From contig CM034546.1 in NCBI GenBank assembly GCA_020055645.1, positions 42,594,001 through 42,658,000 on the forward strand: a stretch of DNA of 64,000 bases, in the 5' to 3' direction. Both the position numbers and the translations under genes were made by a program. Positions 15,989-54,320 of the stretch are shown here, piece by piece (within the stretch, counting starts at the first letter, position 1; the number at the start of each line of letters is the position of its first letter). A model generated the notes under the pieces. The model made no database searches and was not told the origin of the DNA. It worked only from the letters and a program-made list of their open reading frames with translations. Source of the DNA: Tomocerus qinae (lineage: Eukaryota; Arthropoda; Collembola; Entomobryomorpha; Tomoceridae).

Positions 15989-16011
15989 AGTACTTTATTT
16001 ATCGAGTCATA

Positions 16012-21649: not shown

Positions 21650-24600
21650 ATGATTATTTGGATACGAATTATTCTGCTAGCGGTTTTCATCCCACGATGT
21701 ATTGTTTGTGCTGGAAAATTAAAAAAAATATTTAGAATAGATAAGGATTGTTACATCAACATAATATTTTACAAAATGCATTCCATACAATCAACAAAGA
21801 TAATAGAAGAACTGTTGGATTTTAAAACACCATACTCCCTTACGAATGCTGATTCAATTAAGAAGACTATCATTCAAAAGTTCACAAATATGGTTGGCGG
21901 ATACAAGTGCCAAAAATGAAAGTGCCAATTGGCACATTTATCCTACCTGAAAAAACATAAGTGCCAAAACCAAAATGGCCAAAAAACATAAGTGCCAAAG
22001 CATAAAGTGCCAAAATACTTAGTTTATAAGGATACTTATTTCTTTAAATCAACATTCATTTAATATAGATGAATAGCATGCGAGACTGTTTAGAGAATAA
22101 AATGAACTCAGAGAGAAGTAAATGAGGAGATAAAAGTTTAGTTGCAATCTGCTTCCATGGCTGATTTAGTCGTTGGTTAACATTGCACATGGCTCAAGTT
22201 GTTGAAATATTAAGCATGTTTCTGGTTATTCGTTCTTTGTCGAAAACACAGCTGCTCACTTTTGATCTTTATTTTAATAGTGTAATAGTACCACCTTAGA
22301 AAAAAGGATCAAAGGAGCTAGATGCAAAAATATCATTCCAGGTTACAGTGTAAATTTAACTGTGAAACTTACACATTACGTTGATTATATCAAAGATTGT
22401 ACATATTTCATAGGCAGGCAGAACCGAAAATTCAGAGCTCAAAATTACATCTGACAACCATTATTTCTGCTAACATTTGTATAATCTAAACAATAACTAA
22501 TTAAAACCGTATTGGCACTATTTGTCTTAGCACTTAAGTTATTGGCACTTATGAAAAACGCTTGGCACAAAGGGTCATAATTGTCTTGGCATATTTGACC
22601 TTTGGCACTTCTATCCGGGAACCCACAAATATTACAGAACAGGAAAAGGAATCTAAAATATTTTACGAAATAAAACAGTTTGATGTTTGCCTTTTAAATA
22701 AAGTAGTATATTCGCCCTTTTTGAATAACCGATTCACATGCATTGCGCATTTTTCTGTAGATTTGAATTCCAGTAACCTAAATGACGTTATATTAACAAA
22801 AACTGTAATTAAAGAAGTAGGACTTCGGTTCAATTTAAATAAATACAATTCATTCCAAAAGCCTTTCCTGTCAATGGTACAAAATCACAGATGTAACGGA
22901 AAGCGGTTCAATTTCGAAGACTACACAAACCTTTATTTTCTTGTCCACAAAGAAGTTCTGGGAAACATAAAAAACCAAACAAAATTTTTGAATGATATTG
23001 GTATTTAGTTTTCTGCATTGAAAGGACATTATTTTGTGCAGTCATTAGTGGAAGAGGATGACAGGGTATTCTTTATTTGTGGAAAATGTCAGAATCGAAT
23101 TATGTACGGAAATATGGGAATATCAAATAAGTTGATGGACAGTTTAGTTTTCTCACACAATGCTACGTCCACAGGAAATAGTCTTGAACTTCTGAAAAAA
23201 ATCCGGACAGAAGTTGTGTTAGAGGGTCAATTCTTTAAACAAGAATTAAAAGTTAACGTATATCGTTTTCAATACAAGACGAAGAGTTATTTTGGGCCTA
23301 ATTTAAAGAGCGAAAACTTTTCATCGGCTTTCAAAGGAGGCAATATAGACGTGGTGACTATTTTATCTTCGATCGCACTTCGCCGATTTCCCAATGCAAC
23401 AATTGGACCAAAAAATATTTTCAAAGATGCTTTACATATAGAGTACGAAATTTCAACGGAGTATGACGGCTTTCTCTTTGATACATATTTCATTCCAACT
23501 CATTCAGACAGCTACAATTTTATATCTTGTGTGGTTCTGGAAGATGAGAGTCTTTCGTTCTACGGCTACATCCGTCCATTTGATCTTTCTGCTTGGATTG
23601 GGATTCTATTCACAATATTGCTTGTGACAATCTTCTTCCAACTGACTTTGTATTTAAAGCACAACCAAATCCACCATTTCATCTTCACTTGCTGTGCTTA
23701 TGTACTCTGCAACAATTGCGGATTCCCCAAAAAGATGGAGAAATATTTCTGGTTCAAGATTGTTCTGGGACTTTATCTACTGATGTTCATCGTTCTCACC
23801 TATGGCTATGCAGGTATCGTCATCACCGATTTGACTGAACCCAGACCTGTAAAACGACTCGACTCTTTTGAGGAAATTGAAACTTTGGACGATATTTCAG
23901 TTGTCAGTTCACTTCTTAGAGAATCGCCATATGAACCATGGTTAATGCCAATTGCTGATAAAAAATTTATATTGTATTGGTACAACTGCTATATTTATTT
24001 GAACCAAACTCCAATAAATAATGTTCTAATGGAAAGGTATACCAATTTACATAAATGCCACAAAATCAGTTCAATTTCTGAAGACTTGACGTTTCAAGAT
24101 GTATCAATTGAAACTGTGAAGTCAGCATTAGATTATGCCAATCGACTTGGTTGGTCTCAATCTCAATTTTTTCTCCTTCCTTTCGAATCGTTTTATTTCC
24201 CAATCTTTGGTGAAAACCTAAAGAGAATTAGCAACAAAGTTGGTTTTCCACCTATTTCTCCCTTATTAAGTTTTCAACATTGGATTTCTGAATGCAACAG
24301 ATCCGTCTTTGTCGATAGACAGAGCCAAATTCATCGATTTTTAAACGTGTCTCATTGGGATATTGAAAAGGGAGTCAATCTAAAGCGAAAGTTGTACTTT
24401 GGAAATCCAACAGATAAGACAATCAATTTTGGCATAAATATACCCTACTTCACATCATCTTTTCTTCGAGAGTACGCCAAAAGAAATATTTTTAGTTTAT
24501 CCGAATCTGGTATCTACTCAAAATGGATGGAAGTGTACAATAACTTTAATTTCACCCAATGTCGTCATTGCTTTGATAGACCACTACCACGCCCTTTGAC

Positions 24601-24814
24601 ATTTTACAATTCAAACATTTTCACCATTTTCGCTATTGGATTTGCGTTTCTCATTTTGCCTAGTTTAACTATTTTTTGGGAAGCTAGACATGTCGCGTTT
24701 CGTTTTATAACTAATTTGATCTCCAAATTGGGCCACTATGTGGAAACAATAATACTGTATGTTAAGAGAAGAAGGCTTCGCACTAGGCGTACTAGGGTGC
24801 GCCGCCTCAGATGA
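21650..24814 (+). pseudogene. Ionotropic receptor copy 1, twice broken
   Basis: The frame opens with a hydrophobic signal peptide (MIIWIRIILLAVFI) and follows the other copies to about residue 80. There a 732 bp MITE (21892-22623) with a 9 bp target duplication interrupts it. Coding resumes at 22633 in the same frame, reaches a TAG at 23006-23008 where copies 3 and 4 have a Gln codon (CAA or CAG), and continues open from there to 24814. The body has the iGluR/IR plan: S1 region, M1 near IRPFDLSAWIGIL, a pore segment near HHFIFTCCAYVLC, M3 with YGYAGIVITDLTEPR, S2, and M4 near IFTIFAIGFAFLIL. A basic Arg-rich tail (RRRLRTRRTRVRRLR) ends it. MITE and stop together make it a pseudogene unless the MITE is spliced out and the stop is read through. 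Confidence 0.88.
21892..22623. mobile_element. Mutator-like MITE with 9 bp target duplication
   Basis: CACAAATAT is duplicated at 21883-21891 and 22624-22632. Between the copies is a 732 bp non-coding element with imperfect terminal inverted repeats of about 23 bp (GGTTGGCGGATACAAGTGCC against GGTTCCCGGATAGAAGTGCC). Several subterminal AAGTGCCAA motifs occur on both strands. The 9 bp duplication and subterminal repeats suit a Mutator-like element; the family is otherwise unassigned. Element plus duplication is 741 bp, a multiple of three, so the frame of the host gene is kept on both sides. Confidence 0.9.
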
Positions 24815-26133: not shown

Positions 26134-27516
26134 AAATTATCAGGAATGAATTTTTTAGATAGTTTTTTGTGTGTTTATCATTTTAGATTAGTCTTGGTAT
26201 GCTTTGAAATATATATAAATCAGAATTATGGATTTTTTGTTGTTAGATAAATTATATCTTTACTAAGAAGACAATGAGAATGTTTAAGGGCCACTTGAAA
26301 CTCTTACTAAGGATATCATTTTCCCCGTTAGTGACGTCATGTATGATTAAAAACAATTGTCAATATAATATTTAACGTCACAAGCGGTGATAATAGATAT
26401 GAATGCAAAGAGTTTTGGTTGGTCTCCAGACGTTTGTTTAAGCATAAGTGTCAATTTTGATGAAATAAATCCATCCTTCACAAAATGGTGCTTTATGTAT
26501 TTTATTTTACAATAATTGGTCATAAACACGTTTTACTATATAAATCCTTTGCTACTGAAAGTTGCATTGTATTGGAAAATTGCGATTAATCCATTTTAAA
26601 GTAATATTATAAAATATATAGTACTACTACAGTTTGGTCGTTAGTACTTACTGATATCATTCTGGATAGTAAAGATGTTTTCCGGGCAATATACAACCCT
26701 GTGTATAAATAACATTCTGTTATACTCACACATGTGTTAATCCAATGTATTTTCCCTTTATGATTTAGTTGTACGAGTTTCTTAAACTGAGTTAAGCAGC
26801 TTGTTGGTAGTGCATATTGCTTACTACTATAATATATAACTTCTAAACGGGTTCCATGTAAAAATAATCTAAATAGTGAGAACAAATAATGATTATTGAT
26901 TGCTGCAGGTTTTAAATTATTTGAACGTCGATAGCCAAGGTCGATTGACTGTCTTGTTATGTGCATGTCTTTTTTTATCGTTTATGTTTGGTATCTACTC
27001 CAACTTATTTAATACGCTTTAGAATTATAATTATAAGTTGTTTTAGAGCCTTCTCTTTAGGGTTGGCTAATTTTTAGTGGACATTATTTCAGGGCAAAGT
27101 GAAGATCTATCTAATAATAAATTAATTTTAAATGCAAACTTATTGATTGGTGAATACGATCAAACTAACAAGCAAAGCTCATTTTTCTATGAAATAGATT
27201 ATAATGTGTCGATTGGCGAAATTCGAGAATTGACATTTTTAAAGCTTTAAAAAGCACTTGTAAAAAACAATTTTATCCGAAATGAACTCTAAAATCTCGA
27301 AAATGTTAAAAAGTATAAAACTCAATTGCTATTCTGTCACAAGTAAAAAAAGTTAAGCATTTTGTATGAATAAGTATCAAATGTTTAAAATATTTGTGAC
27401 TGGGAATGTTAAAGTTTGAAATGTAAGAAATAGGGTAAGAAATAAGAATCGATATCGCAGGTGTTATATACACTAAAACAGTTTATTAAAAAAAGATTCC
27501 GAAAATATTTTCCAAG

Positions 27517-29817
27517 ATGATTATTTGGATACGAATTATTCTGCTAGCGGTTTTCAGCCCACGATGTATTGTTTGTGCTGGAAAATTTAAAAAATTATTT
27601 GCAATTGTAAAGGATTGTCACATCAACATAATATTCTACAAACCGCATTCCATACAAACAACGAAGATACTAGAAGAACTGTTGCAAATCAAAACTCCAT
27701 ACTCCCTCACGAATGTTGATTCTATTAAAAAGGCTATAACTAAAAAATATACAAATATCACAGAACAGGAAAAGGAATCTAAACTATTTAACTACTATAT
27801 AAGACATTTATATGCGTGCCCGACAAAGAAAGTAGTTTATTCACCTTATTTGAATAACCGTTTCACATGCATTGCGCATTTCTCTGTAGATTTGAATTCC
27901 AGTAACCTGAATGACGTTATGTTGACAAAATCTGTCAGTAAAGACGTAGGACTTCAATTCACTATAAATGAACACAATTCATTCAAAAAACCTTTTTTCC
28001 TGTCTATGGGACAAAGATGTCACGAAGGACGGTTCAACTTCGAAGACTACACAAACCTTTATTTTCTTGTCCACAAAGAAATTCTGGAAAACATGAAAAG
28101 GCAAACAAAATTTTTGAATGATATTGCTGATCATTATTCTGGATTGCTAGGACATTATTTTGTGAATTCACTAGTGGAAGAAGATGATAGAGTATTTTTT
28201 ATTTGTGGGAAATGCCAGCAACGACCTATGAACGGAAATATGGGAATATCAAATGAGTTAATGGACAGTTTAGTTTTCTCACACAATGCCACGTCTAGAG
28301 AAAATAGTCTTGAACTTCTGAAAGAAATCCGGGCAGAAGTTGTGTTGGAGAGTCAATTCTTCAAACAAGAATTAAAAGCTAACGTATATCGTTTTCAATA
28401 TCAGACGCAAAGATATTTTGGACTTACTTTAAAGAACGAAAACTTTTCATCGGCTTTCAAAGGAGGCAATATAGACGTGGTCGCTATTTTATCTTCAATG
28501 GCCCTTCACCGATTTCCCAATGCAACAATTGCACCAAATTTGAATGACAAAAATGCATTACATCTACAGTACGAAGTTTCAATGGATTATCATCATATAT
28601 TTCGCTCTAATGACTACTTTATTCTAACTCATTCAGACGGCTACAATTATATATCTTGTGTGGTTCTGGAGGATGAGAGTCTGTCGTTCTACGGCTACAT
28701 CCGCCCATTTGATCTCTCTGCTTGGATTGGGATTCTGTCAACAATATTGCTTGTGACAATCTTCTTCCAACTGACTTTGTATTACAAGCACAACCAAATC
28801 CACCATTTTATCTTCACTTGCTATGCTTATGTACTCTGCAACAATTTTGGATACCCCAAAAAAATGGAAAAATATTTCTGGTTCAAAATTGTTCTGGGTT
28901 TTTACCTTTTGATGTTTATTGTCATCACCTACGGCTATGCAGGTATTGTCATTACCGATTTGACTGAACCCAGACCTGTAAAACAAATTGACCCTTTTGA
29001 GGAAATTGAAACTTTTGAAGATATTATTTCAGTTGTCAGTCCACTTCTTAGAGAATCGCCATATGAACCATGGTTAATGCCAACTGATGATAAAAAATTT
29101 ATATTGTATTGGTACAACTGCTATGTACACTTGAATCAAACTCCAAATAATGCTGTAATGAAAAGGTTTAACAATATAGAAAAATGCGAAACGAACAGTT
29201 CAATTTTTAACAATCTCACGTTTCAAGATGTATCTGTTGAAACTGTAAAATCAGCATTAGATTATGCAAACCGACTGGGTTGGTCTAAATCTCTGTACTT
29301 TCTCCTTCCTTTCGAATCATTAAATTTCCCAATCTTTGGTGAAAAGCTGAAAACAATTAGCAACAAAGTTGGGTTTCCACATATTTCTCCCTTTTTAAGT
29401 TTTCAATTTCAACATTGGATTTCTGAATGCAACAGATCCGTGTTTGTCGATATACAAAGCCAAATTCATCGATTTTTAAACGATTCTCAGTGGGATATTG
29501 AAAAGGGAGTCAATCTAAAGCGAAAGTTGTACTTTGGAGTTCCAACAGATAAGACAATCAATTTTGGCATAAATATACGATACTTTCCATCATCTTTTCT
29601 TCGAGAATACGTCAAAAGAAATTTTTTTAGTTTATCCGAATCTGGTCTCTACTCTAAATGGATGGAAGTGTACAATCACTTTAATTTCACCCAATGTCGT
29701 CATTGTTTCGATAGACCACTACCTCGCCCTTTGACATTTTACAATTCAAACATTTTCACCATTTTCGCTATTGGTTTTGCGTTTCTCATTTTGCCTATAT
29801 TGACTATTTTTTGGTAA
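27517..29817 (+). CDS. Ionotropic receptor copy 2, C-terminal tail cut
   Basis: Single-exon gene of 766 residues. It has a signal peptide, a long divergent extracellular domain with many Asn glycosylation sites, M1 near PFDLSAWIGILSTILLV, a pore segment, and M3 followed by GYAGIVITDLTEPRP. The S2 lobe comes next, then M4 near residue 750. Divergent IRs of this type are chemosensory ligand-gated cation channels or their subunits; the ligand is unknown. The TAA stop at 29815-29817 replaces a GAA codon present in the other copies. The same frame stays open beyond it to a TGA at 29938-29940, encoding the Arg-rich tail seen elsewhere. The protein is thus about 40 residues shorter than its paralogues, losing only the cytosolic tail. 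All channel parts are present, so it may still work. Confidence 0.88.
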   Translation: MIIWIRIILLAVFSPRCIVCAGKFKKLFAIVKDCHINIIFYKPHSIQTTKILEELLQIKTPYSLTNVDSIKKAITKKYTNITEQEKESKLFNYYIRHLYACPTKKVVYSPYLNNRFTCIAHFSVDLNSSNLNDVMLTKSVSKDVGLQFTINEHNSFKKPFFLSMGQRCHEGRFNFEDYTNLYFLVHKEILENMKRQTKFLNDIADHYSGLLGHYFVNSLVEEDDRVFFICGKCQQRPMNGNMGISNELMDSLVFSHNATSRENSLELLKEIRAEVVLESQFFKQELKANVYRFQYQTQRYFGLTLKNENFSSAFKGGNIDVVAILSSMALHRFPNATIAPNLNDKNALHLQYEVSMDYHHIFRSNDYFILTHSDGYNYISCVVLEDESLSFYGYIRPFDLSAWIGILSTILLVTIFFQLTLYYKHNQIHHFIFTCYAYVLCNNFGYPKKMEKYFWFKIVLGFYLLMFIVITYGYAGIVITDLTEPRPVKQIDPFEEIETFEDIISVVSPLLRESPYEPWLMPTDDKKFILYWYNCYVHLNQTPNNAVMKRFNNIEKCETNSSIFNNLTFQDVSVETVKSALDYANRLGWSKSLYFLLPFESLNFPIFGEKLKTISNKVGFPHISPFLSFQFQHWISECNRSVFVDIQSQIHRFLNDSQWDIEKGVNLKRKLYFGVPTDKTINFGINIRYFPSSFLREYVKRNFFSLSESGLYSKWMEVYNHFNFTQCRHCFDRPLPRPLTFYNSNIFTIFAIGFAFLILPILTIFW

Positions 29818-31336: not shown

Positions 31337-34300
31337 TTAATCGTATTCAATATTTAACTTTCTAAAAATTCCTTCTGTTTTAGCAAATTGTATCATAAGT
31401 TTGATGGTTTCAGATACATGTGGAATCACATCGTTTATATTTGGGATTATATCTGATAATTTGGAACTTGGACGGTAAATATTTCCTTTTTCTTCCATTG
31501 CATTCTTAAATACCGGATTGATTCCACTTACGACTTCATTAGCATCTCTATTCCCAATAGCTTCTCTAAACATTTCAATCAATGGATTTTTATCAGCAAG
31601 TATTCTTTCCTTAAATTCGCTGATATCTACTATTTCTACTTTAAGACCAGAATCATTGGCAACTCTAGCAAGGTCATTTGATGTTAGTGGAGTGGAGCAA
31701 ACAAAATTATATAGACCTACATCCGCTTTATCATTGAAAATCAATAATGACGAGAGTTTTGCAGCGATATCTACTGGCAATGAGTACCAACCACCGGGGA
31801 TCAAAGGGAATATTTGCATTTTTAAACCACTGAGAATTAAATTCATTAAAAAGTTTGTATCCAAAGTAAAGTGTCCGGTTTTACTATTTCCTGATAAACT
31901 TGCAAATCTAAGAACTTGACATGGAATTCCACGAGTAATTGCTTGAGACATTAATTTTTCGCCGACAAATTTTGTGAAGGCATAACCTTCACCTAAATTT
32001 ACCCCATTATTTATATCTAGAGGCAAATCCTCAGAAATAAAGCCATTGTTATCTAATTCCGTAGCAGCAGCAAAGCTTGATGTAAAGGCTACACGTTTTG
32101 TGCGAATAGTTGTTGCAAATTCCAATATTTTAATTGTTCCTAAAACATTTACTGAACGAATATCCTGTGTAGTTTTAGATTTTTGATATATTTCTACGTG
32201 GTTGGCCTTAACTGCGCAATGGAATATTGCATCAACCGTGTTTGCAAGTTTATTATAATCATTTATATCCAATCCAAAATTATTTTTAGTGATATCGCCC
32301 AAAACAATTGAAATCTTACTACCTTCTAAAATAGTACTTAAATTAAACTTTTTGAGATTCTCTGCTAATTTCTTTTCTGCTGAATTTATCGATTTACCAC
32401 GAATCAAACAAATGATGCTTAAATCATTTTTCTTTGATAATTCTTCCAGCAAATAAACACCAAAATGTCCAGTAGCCCCTGTCACCAATATGTTCTTTAT
32501 CATAGAAGGTTGGACTGGTTCACCTACAGTTTTAATGTGATCTGGGAGTACAGAATCCTCTTTTACCAAATTACGTTGTTGATCAAGAATAGTTTCATTG
32601 TCTAATCTGTCTACAAATTCATTAACCGACATTGTTTTTTCAGCCAGAAATATACTAAGGGTAGCCAATGTAGGATAATCCAAGAGAGATGTTGGATTCA
32701 GCTGCAATCTTTTTCCAAAAGATAATTGTAACTTATTCCTCATTTCAACGGCCATTAACGAATCCAATCCCATGTCCGAAAATGTTTGGTATTCGTCAAT
32801 AGTTTCTGATTCAGGAAGCCTTAATGTTTGTCTTATAATATCCTCGATACATTTCTTAATATATGTTGACCTTCCCTCCACATTCATGTCATTAATATCG
32901 TTCCAAAACTGATCCGCCTGAGCAGATGACTGCTTCTTGGTTGTCTGTTGTCCCGCAGTTAGTTCAGATAAAAATTCTGCAGTACTTGGAAATGCTTCAC
33001 CAAGGGCAATGGGATCCAGTTGTATCACCGCACACTGAGTGTAGGGTTTAGTCATAATGAATTTTAAAGCAGCTATCCCTTGGCCTGGAAATGTCAAAAA
33101 TAATCATTAAATTTTGTAAATTATTTTGAATAGTTTTCATTAATTGCTTAAAAAAGGTTTACCTGGGCTGAAAGAAGTTACCCCGAAAGCTCCTTCTTTA
33201 CCATATACTGTATTTGTTGCCGCCCCGATTTCCGACCATGCTAGTTAAAGAAAATCATTTGATTAATGTTAATACTAGTATGATATCCCACTGCAAATAT
33301 TATATTAATATTATAGCTTTTTAAAGTGTAAGTCAGCAAAATAATAATGACAAACCATGGAGATAATTGTTCAGTATCACGATTCATCATTCATCAATTT
33401 ATCTATTATTAAATAATTTAGGTATCAATTCAACTCACCTCCCCAGTTTATTGTCTGAGCTGGTAGCCCCAATGAGTGTCTGTAATGGGCAAGCGAGTCT
33501 AGAAACATATTTGCAGCTGCATGATTGCTTTGTCCAGGTGGACCTAAAATGGCAGCTGCTGAAGAAAATAGAACGAAATGTTCCAAATTCATTGATTTAG
33601 TCAAATTATGCATATTCCATCCACCATTCACTTTGGCGTTAAACACAGTTTGAAATTTCTCCCAGGTTTGATTTGGAATTGTTGCATCGGATATTTGACC
33701 CGCTGAATGAATTACTCCTCTTAATGGAGGCATTTCTCTTTTTATTATTTCAAATAACTCTTGACATTGTTTCCAATCACTTACGTCAACTTGTCTTGCA
33801 AGAACCTGAACTCCTTGTGTACTTAACGACTTCAAGACTTTTTGAGTATTTTCATTTGGGGCTGTTCTACCGACTAAAACTACATGCTCAGCTCCGCATT
33901 TGACCATCCACTTGCCCACTTCTAAACCAATTCCACCCAAACCACCCGTCACTAAATATGTTGAGTTTTTGCTGAATAGTAAATCATTACTATAATGTTT
34001 TCCTAGACTATCCTTTTTCTCTGGTGGAACTACAACTACTTTACCAATGTGTTGGGCCTTCAAGAAATAATTTAGAGCTTCTTTAATTTCAGACATGACG
34101 AATCTCGTAAATGGAAGAGGTTTCACTTCATTTCCAAGGAATTTTTCATTCATTTTCCCTACTAATTTTTTCATCACATCATCGTCCCCAACTGTTTCTA
34201 AATTTATAATTGTATATTTCACATCAGGTCTAATATTTTCTACTTCTTCTGGTTTCCAGATATTTATTTTTCCCATTTCAATAAACCTTGCATTATGTGC

Positions 34301-37300
34301 ACACACTTTTAGTGAGGTTTCTTTAAATCCAGCACCAGTTAATGAATTCAAAACAAAATCTACTCCTCTTCCGTCTGTCACCTTTTGTATTTCATCACCG
34401 TATGTCAGATCCCGAGAATGAAAAACATTTTCTATACCAATTGATTGAAGATAAGCTCTTTTCCTCTTACTTCCTGCAGTTGCAATGATTTTGGCCCCGA
34501 TTTGTTCTGCGATTTGAATTGCAAATAATCCTACTCCCCCTGAAGCAACATGAATCAAAATTGTATCTTTCTTTTTCAATTTCCCCACCTCTACTAAGCA
34601 GTAATAGGCTGTGAGGTAAACGGAAGGCAAAGTAGATGCCTCTGCGAAGGAAAATTGTTTGGGTTTGTGAAGAATGAGATCAGAATGAAGAATGACGTGA
34701 CTGGCAGCAGAACTCGAATTGGAAATTCCGAAAACCTCATCCCCAATTTTATACTTCATGACTTTAGTACCAACACGAGACACAACTCCTGAAAAATCTG
34801 TCCCTACAGCATCAAACTCTGTGAAATACATATCTGGTTTTAAAATTACTAAAACATCTCTAAAATTTAAAGCTGTTGCACGAATTGAAACTTCAACTTC
34901 ATATTCTTTTAAATTATTAGCTTTCATGACTTTAAAAGTCACATCATTAATCTTTTTGGATTTAGGAATAACTATCTCATAATTAGAACTAGGCAAAATT
35001 AACGGCGCCGATGGGGGAGGTAAAGCAGCACATCTAAAAACAAACCGTTTATTTTTCCTATATGCTGTAAGGTAGTCATCATCAGTGTTCCACATGTGAA
35101 AAAATATTTGTTTTCTCTCATATACTGGATTGACATTGTCAGGATCTAAATCAATAAAACGGCCCTTAATTTCTGGGAGTTCGTTTTTAAAACTTTTTGC
35201 AATTCCCCAAATAGTTGCTTTAGACGGATGTACTTTTCCTTGGTCACCAATGAAATAAACCCCACGAGTAGCAATAATAAACTTACTGGAATTGGCAAGT
35301 GTACATATATTTTTGCAAATATTTAATGTCGTTTTTGCTAAGTAGTCTTGATTGTCAGTTTCATCTAATCCCACTAATAAAATGTAACCTTTAACGTCGT
35401 ATTTAGAATTTAAGGATTTCATAAAATTACAATTAGCCTGTTCGCTTCCATACTCCAAAAGGTAATCAAACTGTGATCTATTGATATTTGCATGCAGATT
35501 TGAATTTCCCACAATTATAATTCCGTCACCTGTATTTTCAATGATAGATTTTAGTTCATTGGATATTGTTGTGTCATAACCAGATAGAATCACCCACGTT
35601 GGATTTTTCTTTTCATTATCGACATCAGAAGTCCTAAGTGAATACGCATAAAGTTCTGGTGTTGCTCGTGCTACTATTACTTTTATTGCTTCTTGCTTAT
35701 CAGAAATATTTGTGGCACAAGTAAATCCATTCCTAAGCATGATATCACACCACGTTTTCTCATTTACACATGGATGATTTGGTCGAATGTCATAATCTTT
35801 GAAGTACCAATATCCTTCTAGACATCCAAATATCATATCTATATGTCGTATAGGAGTTAATATCTCCATTAAGACAAAAGCTCCAGATGGTGCTAAAAGT
35901 TGTCTAACATTGATGATTGAAGACTCTAGATATTCTGTTGCATGAATTACGGAATTAATTGGACGCTACAACCACATCGTAGAAATGGGGCGCAAACCCT
36001 TGTCGTTTAGGATCTTTCTCAATATTTAGCAGTTTGTAATCCACTGCTGAAATATGTTTGAATGTTTTCTCAGCTTCCGCTAAAAAATGTGGTGAAATAT
36101 CTGTGAATGTATATCGAAACTGTATTCCTTGTTTTTGAAGACCATATATTATTTCTTTGGATGTAGCAGCGCTACCAGCACCTATTTCTAAAATCCTAAC
36201 TATCGAGCCATCTCCCTTTGCTTGTGACAAAAACACTTGCAAATAAGCACTTACTCTTGTATTAGCTAATTTAGAGGCTGCTACATCAGTATATATAATT
36301 AATGGGTCTATTTCGGTATCTTCGCCAAAAAGGATATTCACACCTGTCATATTTCCAATAAGATACTCACTTAATAGCCCACCACAATGTTCAGCAATAG
36401 ATTTCTCTACAAATTCAAAGTTCTCAATTGAATCTATTTTATTCAAAGCAGCAGATTTGAGTTCGTTGATTACGTCCTCTGGTAAAGGTTGTTTATGGAC
36501 CACCCACTCATTATCATGTTTGGAAACAGTCCTGAACAAAAAGTCATTTTCTGCCAATATTGACAACCCCAATTTTACATATGACGAACGGTCTGCAGGT
36601 ATTGAAAGCTGTGTCATTAATCTTTCACACGAAACTCTGTCCCCTAATTTTGGCTTCCAACCTAGCTTATAGAATGCTAATATGAAGTAATAAGGAGTAA
36701 GACCTGCTTGAGAAATCTCTAACCCTTCTGCCACAGCAGGATAAAATTTTGAATATTCCTGCATAATATTGTTTAAATCTTTCAAAAGTTCTCCAGTTGG
36801 TAATAGGTTTGATAAATTGACTCTGGAATGAAATGGAGCATCTCGGGATCTCCATACTTCCTGATTCATACCTGGAAGTTTGTTTTTTATACTGTTAATA
36901 ACATTTAAGAACGATCCAATAGATGTGTTAACTAGTTTAATCCCTGACATGGAAGCCAATATATTGTTTTTATCGTCATATAAATTAACAATTCCACCAT
37001 TGTTTTTAGTCGCATGAATAATGAAATACTCAGTAGTTGATTTTGATACCATAATAAATTTCGAAATACCGACAGGAAGTTGTAAATCCGATTTACTTGT
37101 CTCAGTCACTATAAAGAAAGACTGAAGCATTGCATCAATCACAATTGGATGGTAAACATACTCATTCATATTTCCCGCCTGTACTGGTACTGGGACTTTA
37201 GCTAAAATTTCATTTTCTCCCTCCCATACTATAGAAATACTTTGAAACGTTTCACCAAAATTAATGCCTGCCTGCGCAGTTAAATTGTAAAATTCTTCCA

Positions 37301-40300
37301 GAGATTTAGCAACCAATTCAGATTGCATTTCAGCAATTCGTTCTTTAGTTATTAATTTACATTCTCCTAAACAACTAGAATTGTTTACTGAAATGTTAGC
37401 ACTAGCAAATTGTTTCCATCCTTTTTCTTCATTATAACCGTTAATAAATTTGTGAACAAAGACTCTAATTAAAAATGAGTCTTTTTCTTCCAACTCTGAC
37501 GCCACTACTTGAATTTTATGTTCGTCATTATTGTCTATTTCCATTGGAGCCTCGATGATAAAATTTTCCACAATAACGTCACTATTTCTAATTTTAGTGA
37601 GACTAAAAACCTCTTTTCCTGCTGCTAAAATGAGCTCTAAAAATCCTGCCCCTGGAAATACAATTACATTTGCCACCTGATGATCTCGCAAATACGAGAA
37701 ATCTTGAATGCTTAAATTGTTACAAAATATTTGGTCCTTAATTACTGCTAATGATACTTTACTGCCCAGCAATGGGTGCAAAGGTTTTGGTAGTTGCTCA
37801 GATGTTGATTCAATCCAAAACTTTTGCCGTTGGAACGGATAATGAGGTAAGTCAATCTTTTTTCGAGGATAACACGAATCCACCTTCGCCCAATCCACAT
37901 CAAATCCATTTACATACAATTTGGATAAACTTTCGAATATTGTTATCCAATTATCCTCAATTTTTCGTATGGAAGGGGCCATAGAGAATTTTGCTGTTCT
38001 TCTACAGAGGAATTGTTCAAACCCAGAGCCAATAAAATTGGATGTGCCCCTATCTCTATGAAAATATTGCACCCTTGTTGATGGGCCAATTTAATTCCCT
38101 TAATAAAATCAACAGAATAACGTGCATGATTTTGCCAATATTTAGATGTTATGTCTTTTAAGCCCAGAATATTTCCAACAGATCCAGATATATATTGACA
38201 CAAAGGAGATTTGTGATTAATTTTACCTGCTTCTTTACCGAATTCATCCAACATTGCTTCCATAGCTCGAGAATGAAATGCATGACTCGCCGCAAGCAAT
38301 TGGGATTTTATATTATTAACTGTGCATAATTCCGAAAATTTTTTAAGTGATGCTACTTCTCCAGCTAATACAGTTTCGTCAGTAGAGTTAACCACAGCAA
38401 TATCAACCCACATTCCCGAATTAGACCTAGTAAAAGTCTCAATCATTTGGTTTACCGTTTCCTTAAAAGCTCTAACAGCCAACATACCTCCATTGGGCAA
38501 ATTTTTAATTAATTGACTCCTTTTACAAACTAGAATCAGTGCTTCTTCAAATGTCATCACTCCAGATGCCACAGAAGCAGCAAATTCGCCTACGCTATGT
38601 CCTAACACACAATCGGGCTTTATCCCAAATGTTTCCCACAATTTAAACAAACTATACTCGATGCAAAATATTGATACTTGACTGTAGATTGTATCCTCAA
38701 TGTTAATTTTGGAATTCGTACACAAAAGAATATCAACAACGGATATGCCTACATTATGTGAAACTATTTCGTTACAGGAATTGAATGCATTAGCAAATAC
38801 CGGATTTGTTTCATACAGTACCTTTCCCATTCCCAAATATTGCGAGCCTTGTCCGGTGAAAAGAAATGCAATTTTTGGTTTTTCAATTAAAACTGACTCA
38901 GATGGAAATACAGGGTGTTCCAACTTATTTTTCAAATCTTTTAAATCTAGGGCAATCGCAGTGAAACGATTTTTTAAATGTGACCTTCCAGTATTGGCAG
39001 TAAAACAAATGTTTTCTATTTGTACTACAGGAATTTTGTTACAAAATGACGCATAACTAAAAACCAAATCTTTTAAAGCGTTTTCAGATTTGGCGGAGAG
39101 AGTCAATATGTGGTGAGTCCTTTCTTTTTTGTGGTGAATTGTAAAATCATTTTTAAAGATTTGAGGTGGCTCTTCTAAGATAACGTGAACATTAGTGCCA
39201 CTAATGCCAAAGGAGCTTACTCCAGCCATTCGTTTCCTCTGATTATTTCTGGGCCAAAGAATAGGATTTGTAGGAATAACGGCTGGAAGTGAATCCAAAT
39301 TAATATTTGGATTTACACTATCAAAATTTCTATGAATGGGTATAATTTCATTTTCCATCGCCAGAATAACTTTAATTATCCCCGCTAATCCCGCAGCTGA
39401 TTCAGTATGGCCAGTATTTGTTTTGACGGAGCCAATTACAATCGGTTTTTCTCTTTGTGCTTTATATCCTGCAGAAATAGCGGCAAATTCAATAGGGTCT
39501 CCAATAGGAGTTCCTGTACCATGTGCCTCGACGTAATCAACCTCCTCTGGTTTTACACCAGACGCTTTCAAAGCATCCCGAATTGCAATTTCCTGACAAT
39601 ATTTACTCGGAGTTCCAAAGCTGGAAGTTGTTCCTTCGTTACTAATGCCCGAACCTCTAATTATCGATAGAATTCTGTCTCTATCCCTAACTGCATCAGA
39701 ATACCGCTTGAGTACAACTACAGCAATTCCTTCTCCACGAGCAAAACCATCTGCCTTTTCATCAAATGTCTTACAATGACCGTCTTTAGCCAGAATAGGG
39801 AGATCACTGTGTGGGAAATGAGCAATTAGCCAATTGGCACCAGTGACGAGAGTCAAATCTGTTTCTCTTTTTCTCAAACTGTCGCACGCCAAATGCAAAC
39901 TGACCATTGATGAAGAACAACCTGACTCAGTGGCCACATTTGGACCGTTCAGTCCCAGAAAATACGAGACTCGAGCTGAAGTGGCGCTGAAAGCATTCCC
40001 AAGAATCACGTGATGGAAATCACGTCCTCTGTTGGTACTTTCAGACACTAGTCGTTCGTACTCTTGTGTCCATACCCCCGAAAATACGCCCGTGTTACTT
40101 CCTTTTAATTTTACGGGATCAATTGAAGCGTTTTCCAAAGCTTCCCAGGCGACCTCCACCATCAATCTTTGCTGGGGATCCATAAACGCGGCTTCCCTGG
40201 GACTAATCCCGAAAAACTTTGCGTCGAATTCGTCAATTGGGCATTTCAGAAATCCCGCTTTAATAGACGTATAGCGCGGATTTTCACTGAAACGTTGAGG

Positions 40301-40507
40301 AAGACGCTCCATTGGAATTGAACTTATTCCATCCGATCCAGTCTCCAATAGTTCCCAAAATTCGTTGATATTATTTGCTCCAGGAAATCGGCAGCTTTGT
40401 CCAATAATAGCAATTGATTCTTTTATGTCATCATGCCGCTTTTTGCTTAATTGTTCATTGAATAGTTCTGTTTTTATATGCGAATTACTGATATTTTCAG
40501 TGAAAAT
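31337..40507 (-). CDS. Highly reducing type I polyketide synthase
   Basis: Exons: 40507-33439 (7 kb), 33240-33163 and 33084-31337. Domain order and visible motifs are as follows. [10 protein letters not shown] with the active Cys, [30 protein letters not shown] and HAFH, a malonyl-type signature. [13 protein letters not shown] and DAMLQ. C-methyltransferase: [40 protein letters not shown], then SNHAAAN where Tyr is usual. [12 protein letters not shown], with the phosphopantetheine Ser. Thioester reductase: [14 protein letters not shown]. It should build a methyl-branched, reduced chain and release it as aldehyde or alcohol. Two frameshifts interrupt the big exon, near 37.94-38.07 kb and at about 35953. 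There is no ATG upstream of the KS motifs, and the exon joins in phase to a glycogenin-like exon at 40659-40594. It is therefore probably the C-terminal part of one fusion gene. Confidence 0.9.
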
Positions 40508-40593
40508 CTAACAGCACAAAACATCCACAAACAATAGATTAGTTCATAGACCACTGATATTTTAATTTGTGAAACAATTAAATTTTTCTTTAC

Positions 40594-43500
40594 CTTATGG
40601 TCAGCAATACATGGGAAAACGTCGTTTGTAAAGACATCCAACCAAAATTTCAAGTAACACTGTAAATCAATTTAATTTGTGTAAGTGCTTGAAATTTTTG
40701 AAAGTTGATATTTACTAGGTGTTTTATTTCATAAATATTATTCTTACACAACGTTTTCTTTCGCTTTCCAGTAGTTTTATATCATTAACAAGCATCCAAG
40801 GTTTGATATCCATCACGTTCCAAACTTTTGCGCCACTTGTGACCAATCTAAATCCAGAATAAATTACAATAATTGTCTGCAGGCGTTTATCTAGAAATTT
40901 GTTCAAGGGGTGTGCAACCAAAAATAATGAAAAAAATTTTTTGGCCTTTTTTGGGAAAAACTCTTTTTCCATGCAAATATGCCGATTACTGCCCCACCCC
41001 ATTGCATGGATTGCATCCAAGGGATTAAGTAGAAAATATTATGAGTCTTGGTTCTGTTTGAATCAAGTCATGCATTTTTACCATTAAGTGCATTTTTACC
41101 ACTGTGATCAGGGTTGCGGTATCCGGATAGGAAGGTTTTTATCCACTGGAAAAAATTGATTTTATCCGGATGAAATTAATTTTATCCGGACAAAATGGTT
41201 GTGTTTAGTGGACGAAATGGTTTTGTCCACTGGACAAAATAAATTTCATCCGGACAAAACGTAACCCTGACTGTGATGGTAAAAAAGCCTGAAAAGTGGT
41301 AAATTTTGTACACTGTGTTTGATAGTGCCAAAATTAAAAAGTAATAAAATTCTTACCGCTCCGAGTTACAGTCTCTTGTGGTAATTCTGTCAACGATATC
41401 CAAATCACTGGTTTTAATTTTTGCTCCAAGTTGTTTAAAAAGACATTCCCGATTAGCAACTAAGTTTTTATCTGCAGAAATAAAAGATTGTCATACTAAA
41501 GGATAAATGCTAATCGTCCCTTAAGGATAGAATAAGCCTGTATCCACTTTCAGATTGGTAGAGAAATAAGCCTATATCCATTTTTTGTTTGGCACAGGAA
41601 AAAGACAAAATCCATTTTTTGTTTGGTACAGGACAGGAATAAGCCTAAATCCACTTTTCGTTTGGTGCAGGAAATAGCCTCTACCCTCTTACAGCCTTAC
41701 GTAAGGTTGTCGGGGCACAGTAAGAATAAACAAGTTGACGAAATGAAGTATTTATTATTTTTATGTTGATACTTGAAATATATCATGCTAGAATGTACAT
41801 AAACATTATAAAATTTTAGCTAATTACACAATAAGACAAAAACAAAACTTTTAACGACTCAAATTCGGATTTTGATATTGGATAAAACTAAACTGGCTGG
41901 AAGGAAGAATGAAAGTTCAATATTTCTGCCGCTCATATTAACCATGTATCAATACGCCCCTATAAGCTGCAAGAGGGTAGAGGCTATTTCCTGCACCAAA
42001 CGAAAAGTGGATTTAGGCTTATTCCTGTTTACCAAACAAAAAATGGATTTTGGCTTTTTCCTGTGCCAAACAAAAAATGGATATAGGCTTATTCCTCTAC
42101 CAATCTGAAAGTGGATACAGGCTTATTCTATCCTTAAGGGACGTAATAATACATCGCAAAGATTGGAATTATTTTGAATGGAATTCTCAAGGTTTTGCTG
42201 CAACCCGTTCGTACAAAAGCATGTAGCCACTGAAAGTGGTGTATTTTGAGGAATTGGGCATTGGGGACAAACATAGAAATTTCCTGGATATTTTTAGTTT
42301 GTCTCTTTATGCACAGTATAATTTAAGCCTGATTTTAAGTAAACTAAATAATCTCAGCTGTGTTTGTAAATAGTTTCCCTATATATATTTCAGCAGAAGG
42401 TATTAAACATCTTATAAATAAGAACAAATAATTTAGAGGGGAAAAATCATTGATTCGTCAACCAAAAAATAGTCCAACTGATAAATTAAAAAAACTGGGC
42501 TGAAAACCGAAATAAGTTTGCTGAAAAGGCAAACACGCACCACCCCAACGATACGAGATCTCAGTGCAGTGAGTGCAGTGGTGTTAATCTATTATATTAT
42601 GATACTCGTAAATTATTCGTTGGTTGGAATGACAGTACCTTTACATACGATACAAAATAAATATGCGAAATAATAAAAACATTTACCACATTATGACGGA
42701 TTTCTACTGCAGATAGCATATTCGCATAGACTATGTAAGAAGGTTCAGCTACTACCATGGAGACATCATTGGTAATATCGACAATTGCAGAAGAATCCTC
42801 CAAACCAAAGAGTTCATCACAATTCTTTACAACCTAGAACATATTTAGATGTCTACTGAACAAACTTTCCAGTCATTAATTGTAATTTAGATATAGCAAG
42901 TTTTCTTTCAAAATAAATAAGGTAAGCATCGAAATTTAGCCGATTTCGATGCATCGGCAAAATAAGAAAAGCGTCGCATCGGTGGCCGATGCATCAGCAC
43001 ATCCCTAATTAAACGAATCAAAATAAAAACGAATCAAATGTGCGAATATTTATTGTTATACGGGATGTATTCACTTACAATCAAATGAGGATTAAGAAAA
43101 ATGCATTTCCGATACATGGTCATACTCCAAATAAAAATTCTTGCAACATCCGGTGGTAACAAGTCAATCGGCTCCGGCTGTTTAAATTCCGTTTGTAACC
43201 TCATGACGATATCAAAAACGTCCGACAGTACGAGACTATTCAATTTAGAAATGAGAATGTTTATTTTTTCATAGAGACACATTCCAGCCATATTTATTTT
43301 AATTTCTATTTAGTCTGACTGTCATATTTCATAATAATAATGCACAATCCACAATAGTAGAATAACTATAAACTACTGTAAATTAGAGGTAAAAATTGTT
43401 GATGGCGTAACAAGTCATATCAAAAAGGTATTTTTATCTGTAGAAAGTATTAGAAATAATTAATATTGATAGAATTCCGTCTTACCAAAGGGACCTGCTC

Positions 43501-43652
43501 ATATCTCCAGGTACGAGTACGACAATCTTAGCAGTTGTCACAACTCGTCGAAGAGACATGGCCAAGACGAGGGCTTGTAGGCAAGTTTCCTCGTTATAGG
43601 CTACTGTCACCCAGGCTAAATCAGACACAACTGCAAACACAACAAAAAACAT
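40594..43652 (-). CDS. Degenerate glycogenin-like (GT8) domain, N-terminal to PKS
   Basis: Exons on the minus strand: 43652-43486, 43235-43079, 42833-42687, 41471-41357, 40847-40748 and 40659-40594. Joined, they follow glycogenin from end to end. Residues DLAWVTVAYNEE then ALVLAMSLRRVVTTAKIVVL match the start. IWSMTMYRKCIFLNPHLIV follows, then DELFGLE, KVWNVMDIKPW and WLDVFTNDVFPCIA. Catalytic marks are lost: the DxD metal site is NPH, and the GGDQG-like site has no equivalent. The domain is probably inactive and structural. The start is the ATG at 43652; a spliced upstream start is possible. Splice phases agree except between exons 3 and 4 (one base out), where the donor is unclear. The last exon ends in phase 0 directly before the PKS exon at 40507, so both look like one gene. 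Two separate genes cannot be excluded without RNA. Confidence 0.75.
40881..41020. mobile_element. Diverged relative of the 30159 MITE
   Basis: In an intron of the GT8 part. CAGGCGTTTATCTAGAAATT and the following GCAACCAAAAATAATG match the reverse complement of 30159-30317 (CAGGCACGTATCCAGAAATT, GCAACCAAAAATAATG). Its far end has drifted and no target duplication could be fixed, so the right border is approximate. Confidence 0.6.
41109..41269. mobile_element. hAT MITE, 161 bp, with 8 bp target duplication
   Basis: ACTGTGAT flanks it exactly at 41101-41108 and 41270-41277. The ends CAGGGTTGCG and CGTAACCCTG are inverted repeats of the hAT type. Inside, TTTTATCCGGA and TTTTGTCCACTGGACAAAAT blocks repeat in both orientations, so the whole element can fold on itself. 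It sits in an intron of the GT8-PKS gene. Confidence 0.92.
41515..42143. mobile_element. Fold-back MITE with CGTCCCTTAAGGAT ends, copy A
   Basis: Ends CGTCCCTTAAGGATAGAATA are inverted. The subterminal arms hold modules of about 60 bp (TCCACTTTTCGTTTGG, TCCATTTTTTGTTTGG) in mirror order. TAAT is duplicated at 41511-41514 and 42144-42147. No protein is encoded. It lies in the largest GT8-PKS intron. A shorter copy with the same ends and modules is at 50882-51093. Confidence 0.92.
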
Positions 43653-51093: not shown

Positions 51094-51701
51094 ATATCTG
51101 GTTGAAAATAGATTTCAAATAAGCCTTCTACTATGATTATTTGGAACAGAGATTGGATAGGAATTATTCTGTTGACTATTTTTATGCCACCATATATTGT
51201 TTGTACTAGAAAGTTAGAAAATTTATTTGCTATAGAGAAGAATTGTTACATCAACATAATATTTTACAAAACGCATTCTACACAAACTACAGAGATACTA
51301 GAAGAACTGATCCAAATCAAAACTCCATACTCCCTCACGAATGTTGATTCTATTAAAAAGACTATAACTGGAAAGTATACAAATATTTCAGAAAAAGAAA
51401 GAGAGTCTCAAATATTTGACAAAATAAAATATTTATATGTTTGCCAAGTGAAGAGTGTAGTATATTCGCCTTTTTTGAATAACCGATTCAAATGTTTTGC
51501 TCATTTTTCTGTAGATTTGAATTCCAGTAACCTGAATGACGTGATACTGACAAAAGCTGTAATTAAAGACGTAGGACTTCAGTTTAATATAAATGAATTC
51601 AATACTTTTCAAAAGCCTTAGAAATATGCAATCCTTGTAAGGAAAAAATCGCCCCAGAATCCAATTTCTGATTATTTATTGTTTATTTGCCGGAAAAATC
51701 T

Positions 51702-51736
51702 TAGAGTGACTAGTTTCATATTATCATCAGACTCTA
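51702..51736 (-). ncRNA. Hammerhead-like ribozyme motif, left arm
   Basis: Mirror copy on the minus strand of the motif at 54286-54320; see that entry. Being inside the identical inverted arm, it has the same sequence. Confidence 0.45.
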
Positions 51737-52230
51737 CATCACCAAAAATTATTTATATTATAAAATATCCTTAAGTACCAGCTTAATTATATCATTTTAT
51801 ATTTTAAATGACAGAATACACATAAAAATGCCACTGAAGTGATTACCTATTTCGTTTTCCTTTCACAAAACATTATTTCTTCAATAATCTAGTTGTATAC
51901 TAAATTACATTGTCATCTTCTAAAAAACAACATTATAAAAACATTAAATTTCGTTACTATCGTTACATTTTACAAAAACAGAGCAAGTAAAAAACGGTTA
52001 TACATTAGTTTATAGAATGTAAAGTATAGGCTTATACAAATGTAAAAATATAAAGTAACCTTTGATACAATTTTAGAAAAAAATCTAAAATTCTGACAGA
52101 ATTTTTTCTGTCCTGTCCCGGCTGATGTTAATTGCCTCTCAATGTCATAATTTCCCACTCCTTGCTATTAATGACAGGTTTTTATGTGTAAGTAATCTTA
52201 GACTGAGAGACACGAGAATTCTGTTTCTCT

Positions 52231-52763
52231 TTACCCCTTTAACATTTTCTGTACAGAGTTTATTTTTGTATACGCTATACTTATGGTAACATTAGTTGTC
52301 CAATCTTTGAGTTTTTCATCGTTACATTTTTGTATTGCGTTAAACACTTCCTCCTTAAAAATATTACCAATATTCCGTATATTATTATAAAAAGGTACTA
52401 CTACAAATATCTTATTACCAAACTCTTTTTCCGTTAGCTTAGTTACGTCTATTTTATAGTGTTCCAATATTTCTGGAGTATGTATTCTGAGATTGCGGAT
52501 CAGTAAGTCTTTTTTAGGTGTGAGAATAGAATGTCTGCTTACATTTTTCAGTTTTTTAACGCAATCATTTAAAAGACTATTTGGATAACATCTAATTTTA
52601 AATTTTTCCATTTCAGATGTGATTTCCAAATTTGCCTTTTCAGTATCAGAAAAACATTTCATAATTCTTATACCCGCTGAATAAGGAAGTGACTTTTTTA
52701 CATGGGTTGCGTGATTTGAATAGTAATGAAGATACAAATGCTTACTCATTGGCTTACGGAAAA
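52231..52763 (-). pseudogene. Reverse transcriptase C-terminal fragment, inverted arm
   Basis: The minus-strand frame from 52763 down to 52231 encodes the same roughly 180 residues as the end of the + strand reverse transcriptase, starting at FRKPMSKHLYLHYYSN. It has no catalytic core of its own: upstream it runs into the unique spacer read backwards. It is a by-product of the palindromic structure. Confidence 0.85.
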
Positions 52764-52768
52764 TAAGC

Positions 52769-53791
52769 GTGTTAGTAACTGCGGATATTGAAGCACTGTA
52801 CCCGAATCTTCCCATAAAAATTTGTAAAACACAATGTCTAGAAGCATTTGAAGAAAATAGACATTTAATTAATTTACCATGCGATATTTCAAGCATGCAG
52901 TTGTCCAAGTTACTAGATTGGAGTCTTGATTACAACTTCATAGAATTTAACCAACTATATTTTAAACAACATAAAGGAATACCAATGGGATCTAATTGTA
53001 GTGTAACTGTAAGTAATATAACTGTATCTAGAGAAATCAAGCAACTATTTGAAGATAAAGAGGAAATTATTTCCATTAATAGATTTATTGATGATATTTT
53101 ACTATTCATTGAAGTAACCAATATTAATAATATAGATGAGTATCTTAATTCCCTATTTCAACACGAGTTTTTAAAATTTACATACGAATGGTCTTATAAT
53201 CAAGTAAACTTTTTAGATTTAACAATAGGTCTAAATAATAATATTATAGAAACTGTAATTTTCCGTAAGCCAATGAGTAAGCATTTGTATCTTCATTACT
53301 ATTCAAATCACGCAACCCATGTAAAAAAGTCACTTCCTTATTCAGCGGGTATAAGAATTATGAAATGTTTTTCTGATACTGAAAAGGCAAATTTGGAAAT
53401 CACATCTGAAATGGAAAAATTTAAAATTAGATGTTATCCAAATAGTCTTTTAAATGATTGCGTTAAAAAACTGAAAAATGTAAGCAGACATTCTATTCTC
53501 ACACCTAAAAAAGACTTACTGATCCGCAATCTCAGAATACATACTCCAGAAATATTGGAACACTATAAAATAGACGTAACTAAGCTAACGGAAAAAGAGT
53601 TTGGTAATAAGATATTTGTAGTAGTACCTTTTTATAATAATATACGGAATATTGGTAATATTTTTAAGGAGGAAGTGTTTAACGCAATACAAAAATGTAA
53701 CGATGAAAAACTCAAAGATTGGACAACTAATGTTACCATAAGTATAGCGTATACAAAAATAAACTCTGTACAGAAAATGTTAAAGGGGTAA
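52769..53791 (+). pseudogene. Penelope-like reverse transcriptase, 5' truncated
   Basis: Open frame of 340 residues. It begins inside the palm: motif A TADIEALYPNLP, motif B HKGIPMGSNCSVTVSNI, motif C RFIDDILLF with the catalytic Asp pair, then FLDLTIG and FRKPMSKHLYLHYYSN, typical of Penelope-like elements. The N-terminal fingers region is missing because the inverted arm joins just upstream. The thumb is present and the frame stops at 53791. No GIY-YIG endonuclease follows. It is not expected to be autonomous in this form. Confidence 0.88.
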
Positions 53792-54285
53792 AGAGAAACA
53801 GAATTCTCGTGTCTCTCAGTCTAAGATTACTTACACATAAAAACCTGTCATTAATAGCAAGGAGTGGGAAATTATGACATTGAGAGGCAATTAACATCAG
53901 CCGGGACAGGACAGAAAAAATTCTGTCAGAATTTTAGATTTTTTTCTAAAATTGTATCAAAGGTTACTTTATATTTTTACATTTGTATAAGCCTATACTT
54001 TACATTCTATAAACTAATGTATAACCGTTTTTTACTTGCTCTGTTTTTGTAAAATGTAACGATAGTAACGAAATTTAATGTTTTTATAATGTTGTTTTTT
54101 AGAAGATGACAATGTAATTTAGTATACAACTAGATTATTGAAGAAATAATGTTTTGTGAAAGGAAAACGAAATAGGTAATCACTTCAGTGGCATTTTTAT
54201 GTGTATTCTGTCATTTAAAATATAAAATGATATAATTAAGCTGGTACTTAAGGATATTTTATAATATAAATAATTTTTGGTGATG

Positions 54286-54320
54286 TAGAGTCTGATGATA
54301 ATATGAAACTAGTCACTCTA
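54286..54320 (+). ncRNA. Hammerhead-like ribozyme motif, right arm
   Basis: The conserved hammerhead boxes occur in order: CTGATGA at 54292-54298, GAAAC at 54305-54309, and GTC at 54312-54314 as the predicted cleavage site. They are enclosed by a perfect 6 bp stem I (TAGAGT/ACTCTA). Stem II is reduced to six A/T bases and stem III to about 2 bp, so activity is doubtful alone. Penelope-like elements are known to carry minimal hammerheads in their terminal repeats, which makes the position meaningful. Confidence 0.5.

Follow-up and report, generated by a model that had tools for sequence, protein, structure and literature searches.

A glycogenin-like head, very probably fused to a reducing polyketide synthase of bacterial type, in the springtail Tomocerus qinae

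Where does a polyketide synthase (PKS) begin if its ketosynthase exon offers no start codon? The question is raised by a reducing type I PKS gene on the minus strand of a 64,000-nucleotide stretch of the genome of the springtail Tomocerus qinae (GenBank assembly GCA_020055645.1, contig CM034546.1, positions 42,594,001 to 42,658,000; the whole stretch is called the window below, and positions are counted from its first letter). The original prediction placed a glycogenin-like domain of glycosyltransferase family 8 (GT8) at the head of this synthase. Our analysis indicates that the GT8 head and the PKS are very probably one fused, chimeric gene. With only slightly less confidence, the locus can be assigned to a large chimeric family, in which a bacterial-type PKS carries a head from host glycogenin, possibly as a non-catalytic platform. 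The PKS part of the window gene (40507-31337, minus strand) was delimited by Pfam domains and by reading exon ends base by base, and the features of the gene are as follows.

43486-43652, minus strand: GT8-like exon G1, glycogenin residues ~2-48 (donor GTAAGA, phase 2)
43079-43235, minus strand: GT8-like exon G2, residues ~48-106, DxD site reading NPH (alignment to glycogenin)
42687-42833, minus strand: GT8-like exon G3, residues ~107-158 (alignment to glycogenin)
41357-41471, minus strand: GT8-like exon G4, residues ~160-202 (alignment to glycogenin)
40748-40847, minus strand: GT8-like exon G5, AKVWNVMDIKPW against glycogenin AKVVHFLGRVKPW (alignment and shuffle tests)
40594-40659, minus strand: GT8-like exon G6, FWLDVFTNDVFP against glycogenin LWWNIFTTNVLP, end of the GT8 domain (alignment and shuffle tests)
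40508-40593, minus strand: intron joining G6 to the ketosynthase (KS) exon, 86 nt, phase 0, with an in-frame TAG at its 3' end (base-level reading)
33439-40507, minus strand: PKS exon (the KS exon), with linker, KS, acyltransferase (AT), dehydratase (DH), C-methyltransferase (cMT), enoylreductase (ER) and ketoreductase (KR) (Pfam and exon-end reading)
39323-40420, minus strand: KS domain (PF00109 and PF02801; phmmer against CurL 4mz0, E 8e-198)
38024-38866, minus strand: AT domain (PF00698)
37476-37778, minus strand: DH part (PF21089)
35958-36191, minus strand: methyltransferase domain (PF08242, 29.1 bits, just below the 30-bit cut-off)
34244-34537, minus strand: ER (PF00107)
33440-33964, minus strand: KR (PF08659)
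33163-33240, minus strand: small PKS exon (base-level reading)
31337-33084, minus strand: last exon, with acyl carrier protein (ACP, 32845-32651), terminal thioester reductase (R, 32485-31757) and stop codon TAA (Pfam and base-level reading)

The acceptor of the KS exon reads GTTAG/ATTTTC, and the exon opens with ATT TTC ACT after GCTGTTAG. As had been claimed, this exon has no in-frame ATG before the KS motif and a TAG right at its acceptor; both statements hold at base level. The TAG is the codon immediately preceding the exon in the KS frame, 93 nt upstream of the KS motif; no ATG occurs in this frame between the two, and the first one (40312) lies within the KS domain. With the in-frame TAG at the acceptor, a start inside the 86-nt intron is excluded. 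An in-frame ATG between 40594 and 40507, named beforehand as evidence against the fusion, was looked for, and only two ATGs (40547 and 40524), both outside the KS frame, were found. The expected join of G6 (40659-40594) to the KS exon in matching phase was recovered, the junction being of phase 0. A poly(A)-like ATTAAA is present at 40566; reading on through G6, the first stop lies after 40477, beyond this signal. A GT8 gene ending before the KS exon was considered and rejected, as the intron is just 86 nt long and the read-through stop lies past the poly(A)-like site.

The original prediction chained four of the five GT8 exon junctions in phase, and the same four were found: G1/G2 (phase 2), G2/G3 (phase 0), G4/G5 (phase 2) and G5/G6 (phase 0). 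The donors of the six exons were listed as GTAA. At G3/G4 the sole in-phase donor is a poor one (GTCATA); a phase-1 GTAA donor, which closes G3 in the paralogues L054 and L055, was not found in the window copy, where the G3 donor site seems to have decayed. The start of G1 is either the ATG at 43652 or else a phase-1 acceptor with base 43630. Joined, G1-G6 give 252 residues (one X stands at the unclear G3/G4 junction). In a search of this head against PDB, 19 of the 20 rows at E<=10 were glycogenins (best 1.4e-15), the remaining one being DrrA (E 0.29), and the glycogenin alignment spans SDLAWVT through FWLDVFTNDVFP. The halves G1-G3 and G4-G6 each outscore 2000 of 2000 shuffles, and single exons were matched by shuffles in 79 (G4), 11 (G5) and 1 (G6) of 2000 cases. 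A codon-usage test on the GT8 exons was positive and weak (19 bits over 248 codons), with scores per codon mostly within the range of open non-coding stretches. Chance exons were rejected as an explanation on the PDB matches, the shuffle tests and the genome-wide co-occurrence described below.

The association was then sought throughout the own genome, a 334-Mb assembly of 115 contigs. Human glycogenin-1 gave 42 matches, five of which belong to a single native glycogenin gene (C1:83795026-83799697; 45-67% identity; residues 4-50, 49-108, 106-172, 158-206 and 202-234). The Pfam ketosynthase model gave at least 127 matches, at least 123 loci after neighbours were merged; this count is a lower bound (123 of 163 candidates scored) and may include fatty acid synthases (FAS) and other KS proteins. 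Among the 37 non-native glycogenin matches, 36 are followed by a KS on the same strand at a distance of no more than 10 kb (0.6-8.6 kb, median 1.5 kb), the lone match without a downstream KS being at C2:5919846. Positions this close upstream of a KS cover no more than 0.4% of the genome on each strand. The three remaining arrangements (a KS upstream, or one on the opposite strand to either side) did not occur within 10 kb of any of the 42 matches. At E<=0.01 there were 19 matches: the five of the native gene and 14 others, all 14 upstream of a KS. PF01501 found three places in the own genome, none of them beside a listed KS; the native glycogenin and the heads were not among them.

A second approach started from the synthase. 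The KS-AT piece gave at least 55 matches in the own genome (53 of 211 candidates scored), and many of these paralogues are open over 2348-3068 aa. For the 20 best KS-AT places, window excluded, 5.5 kb of upstream sequence was searched. With the window head as query, PKS-strand matches were obtained in 19 of the 20 regions at E<=1, in 18 at 0.02 and in 17 at 1e-4, and at least two colinear GT8 matches in 16; the opposite strand gave one region at E<=1, none at E<=0.02 and no colinear pair. L064, L068 and L070 lack a colinear pair with the window head, but their exons are ordered with other queries. When heads of distant copies served as queries, L068 and L070 were matched at E 1e-9 to 1e-19, and the opposite strand had no match at E<=0.01. 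Compared with glycogenin itself, the paralogue heads L064 and L055 gave E 7e-20 and 2e-10. Twelve of the 20 paralogues have no in-frame ATG ahead of the KS motif. Nucleotide similarity between the window copy and its three closest copies is found chiefly in the exons and short introns before the KS, with a few stretches elsewhere, and the GT8-then-KS order is kept in copies whose KS-AT is only ~60% identical. The two approaches yielded 28 and 19 loci, one of them common, and with the window added a GT8-KS join was found at 47 of the 123 KS loci. That a glycogenin-like domain heads a reducing PKS is supported by the 19 paralogues of 20 and the 36 non-native glycogenin matches of 37.

The KS complement of this genome is very large and clustered (for example at C1:0.4-0.8, 28.2-28.4, 57.1-57.7 and 71.9-72.5 Mb and at C4:6.5-8.0 Mb). 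In the C4 cluster the open frame that contains the KS is shorter in many copies (305-390 aa), and several of the heads are closer to glycogenin; these copies are perhaps an older or more intron-rich branch.

The exon structure bears on the origin of the head. In human GYG1, intron 2 follows c.143, as given by the variant c.143+3G>C (PMC13258228; the variant also in PMC7046021 and PMC5203857); this position is of phase 2 within codon 48, and G1/G2, likewise of phase 2, falls in the residue that pairs with Arg48 in the alignment. D102 is assigned to GYG1 exon 3 (PMC5203857) and c.487 to exon 5 (PMC13258228), which leaves two introns between them, and the window head likewise has two. The native springtail gene has its breaks at about residues 49, 107 and 203 and at a further point in the interval 158-172 (approximate positions, from match ends), at the places of the G1/G2 to G4/G5 junctions of the window head. 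Because it shares intron positions with GYG1 and the native gene, and the phase with GYG1, the head is, by exon structure, an animal glycogenin.

The synthase, in turn, consists mainly of one long exon, with ~3000 open codons in many copies. In two KS trees the window grouped with a JGI metagenome protein, P0121 (100/99), and the 29 own KS rows (the window plus 28 of the 29 paralogue loci, L034 being absent from the rows, apparently for an early stop) formed one clade (99/97), sister to P0121 and inside bacterial PKSs. Against this placement stands the long branch of P0121, whose joins may be false according to a warning of the tree programme; the rows were picked from matches listed by the searches, and the trees contained no animal FAS. 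For these three reasons transfer of the synthase from bacteria is likely, short of proven. In the protein database, 6029 matches of the KS region passed, the best 120 being dominated by multimodular bacterial proteins, and 122 of the reductase region, with P0121 among the matches listed (best 120). The GT8 region gave 504 candidates and none at E<=1, in a search (query 1770 aa) outside of which relatives over ~3097 aa fell. None of the 239 collected proteins has a GT8-like stretch (best E 2.5), and the GT8 head and P0121 found no relative in viral_contigs. In genome_contigs the KS-AT piece matched 20 bacterial loci, at best with 39% identity. The deepest own branch, L035, carries a head (L064, the one that matched glycogenin at E 7e-20), from which we infer that the join predates the deepest split of the sampled copies, if it happened once.

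Two kinds of evidence bear on what the head might do. First, in 13 computed paralogue pairs the dN/dS of the GT8 exons (NG86) is 0.15-0.31, at synonymous distances of 0.23-1.54, some of them near saturation; the blocks VVKNCDELF, KPW and DVFP are conserved across heads, and the GT8 exons look to be under selection. Second, the active site is eroded. Glycogenin is described as an obligate dimer and a metal-dependent GT8 enzyme (PMC4330554), and the change Asp102His alone abolishes autoglucosylation of human glycogenin-1 (PMC5203857). Of the 19 copies, window included, in which the DxD site can be read, none has kept both Asp; a single one survives in four (the first in L060, the third in L064, L065 and L068). 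In a loosely aligned part, Y195 reads N or R in all five covering rows, H212 is replaced in six of six, and K218, in the KPW motif, is unchanged in six of six. K86 is kept in one of ten covering rows (L064). D163 falls in an alignment gap, and four distant rows end before the Y195-K218 part; in L054 and L055 the G3/G4 intron interrupts an Asp codon that may be the counterpart of D160. The original prediction had offered the head as a primer, dimer or carbohydrate-binding platform. Self-priming was rejected, since the DxD motif is lost in 19 of 19 copies and Y195 is replaced in the five covering rows of the loose alignment, while a dimer or scaffold role was left standing. An ordinary glycosyltransferase is very unlikely. 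As the head is constrained and lies directly before the KS, a structural platform is taken as its most likely role, with about an even chance of being the true one.

Putting these observations together, the following course of events can be proposed. A reducing type I PKS of bacterial type (KS-AT-DH-cMT-ER-KR-ACP-R) would have arrived by horizontal transfer. In a single event older than the deepest split among the sampled copies, it would have been joined to 5' exons from a host glycogenin duplicate. The head (~245 residues) would bring six introns and the start codon, presumably with the promoter as well, and a single transcript would span the GT8 exons and the PKS, giving a protein of ~3200 residues. 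The chimera would then have multiplied to dozens of copies. Judging by its domains, the synthase would elongate with malonyl units, methylate and reduce the chain and release it reductively, and we infer an iterative, C-methylating, fully reducing chemistry with reductive release. As a folded N-terminal platform without catalytic activity, the head could serve dimer support or docking beside the dimeric KS. That an animal lineage domesticated a bacterial-type PKS in this way, through the 5' half of its own glycogenin, in dozens of copies that structurally require the head, is a view to which we incline slightly.

Several results weigh against a fused family. Pfam (PF01501, E<=1) and NCBIfam give no GT8 call on the window head, and the PF01501 gathering score of 24.3 bits is not reached by the paralogue heads either (19.1 bits in L064, no match in three others). 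G4-G6 alone had no PDB match at E<=10, and six of 2000 random chains of window open reading frames (ORFs) score as high as G4-G6, a doubt that the genome-wide co-occurrence of GT8 and KS removes. The human glycogenin search returned 23 of its 42 matches at E values between 0.01 and 6.25 and did not recover the window's own head, so that it undercounts. Among the 20 paralogues, L073 has no GT8 in its 5.5 kb of upstream sequence, and 76 of the 123 KS loci are not shown to carry a head, most of their upstream regions being unread and some of them maybe FAS or other PKSs. Finally, in 8 of the 20 paralogues an ATG in frame precedes the KS motif, and a separate start is possible there. The last point would fit two adjacent genes, one glycogenin-like and the next a PKS with an unseen first exon of its own, duplicated repeatedly as a pair. 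The ATTAAA at 40566 and the one-in-three chance of an in-phase join at a single junction also favour such a pair. It is nevertheless very improbable: the G6-to-KS gap of 86 nt holds a TAG that forbids a start in it, read-through of G6 stops only past the ATTAAA, the order GT8-KS is kept at ~60% KS-AT identity, and no GT8 stop exon was seen, though no dedicated search for one was made.

Given a real fusion, the head could be a passenger that provides promoter and start codon only, its sequence being without function in itself. The lost DxD motif agrees with this, and capture of a 5' end would explain how an incoming gene gained expression; the low dN/dS of the 13 pairs and the three conserved blocks indicate constraint on amino acids, which makes a passenger unlikely. 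Somewhat less likely still is a head that retains sugar-nucleotide or glycan binding and has a part in regulating or glycosylating the product. K218 in all six covering rows, K86 in L064 and the single Asp of four copies would suit it, but none of the 19 readable copies has both Asp, and one Asp change is sufficient to abolish autoglucosylation in the human enzyme (PMC5203857). We therefore prefer the fused gene with a structural head as the reading of the family.

The window copy itself appears degraded: it lacks a good G3 donor, and its long PKS exon is not one open frame. The exon is interrupted twice:

37946-38090, minus strand: frame break 1, a stretch where the reading frame shifts
35955-35965, minus strand: frame break 2

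KS, AT, DH, ER, KR and ACP are all present, distributed over several open frames (Pfam). By comparison, the three closest paralogues are uninterrupted over 2353, 2348 and 2359 codons. We regard the window copy as a probable degenerate member of the chimeric family, a pseudogene unless the breaks are assembly errors at base level, and its exon chain would then be a mere fossil; this leaves the fusion untouched, which stands in the open copies. In the KR of the window copy (~33523, minus strand), the position usually occupied by the catalytic tyrosine reads His, and P0121 has Tyr there (GQSNYAGAN).

Other features of the window were also noted. The intron between G3 and G4 contains one repeat element:

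41515-42143, strand not assigned: terminal-inverted-repeat element, arms 98% complementary, internal repeats of ~34 nt

An array of related long ORFs on the plus strand (22538-24814, 27490-29817, 51112-56353 and 59055-61499) shares a common block, SYNYISCVVLEDESLSFYGYIRPFDLSAWIGIL ... NNCGFPKKMEKYFWFKIVLGLYLLMFIVL. Judged by eye, these may resemble divergent arthropod ionotropic receptors; the array gave no Pfam match at E<=0.01, and one of the ORFs found nothing better than E 0.27 in PDB. The copy at 22538-24814 has an in-frame stop, and that at 51112-56353 is apparently interrupted by an insertion that contains an ORF for reverse transcriptase (52730-53791; PF00078, 26.4 bits, below cut-off). 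At 1450-6300 (plus strand) an ORF for a NACHT/STAND NTPase (E 7e-16) precedes one of 1054 aa that matches nothing in Pfam and may be the sensor part of the NTPase, and an exon of an EHD/dynamin-family GTPase lies at 15952-16737 (plus strand). Rfam gave 0 matches.

If the proposed course of events is correct, capture of the front end of a host gene is a concrete route by which a transferred megasynthase could gain a eukaryotic start, introns and expression, and this route can be followed through amplification to dozens of copies. A domain architecture, a pseudo-GT8 heading a PKS, would be added to those known, with a glycogenin-derived domain under constraint despite its lost metal-binding motif. 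The pseudo-glycogenin head would then be a required part of a new class of animal polyketide synthases, and the open copies make the origins of animal polyketides testable.

No report of a glycogenin-PKS fusion was found in the open-licence PMC literature, judged by listings and titles, and comparison is possible with the known systems from which the parts come. The head resembles glycogenin (GT8; human GYG1 and GYG2) over ~245 residues in sequence, motif order and, where compared, intron positions and phase. It differs in the lost DxD motif, the replacement of Y195 where covered, the fusion to a PKS and a score below the Pfam GT8 cut-off, and no glycogen-synthase-binding tail was seen. The synthase shares its domain kinds and terminal thioester reductase with bacterial reducing type I PKSs (CurL; Okeania and Roseofilum among the listed relatives), at up to 42% identity in KS-AT and 51% in KS; unlike them, it is found amplified in an animal genome, with a pseudo-GT8 head and a few introns. 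P0121 (2946 aa) is sister in both KS trees, with the same domain kinds and the active-site motif ESGCSSS, which occurs in no other of the 239 collected proteins; this protein begins inside the KS motif. In another springtail, Folsomia candida, 30 type I PKS clusters were described, most cluster genes being scored as horizontal transfers (PMC5490193), and the main text of that paper does not mention glycogenin. The animal FAS-like PKSs (AFPKs; PMC10764717) are likewise animal polyketide enzymes, but they group with animal FAS, whereas the window KS stands among bacterial PKSs in trees without a FAS row. The parts are thus known, and their combination and amplification in T. qinae are new to us.

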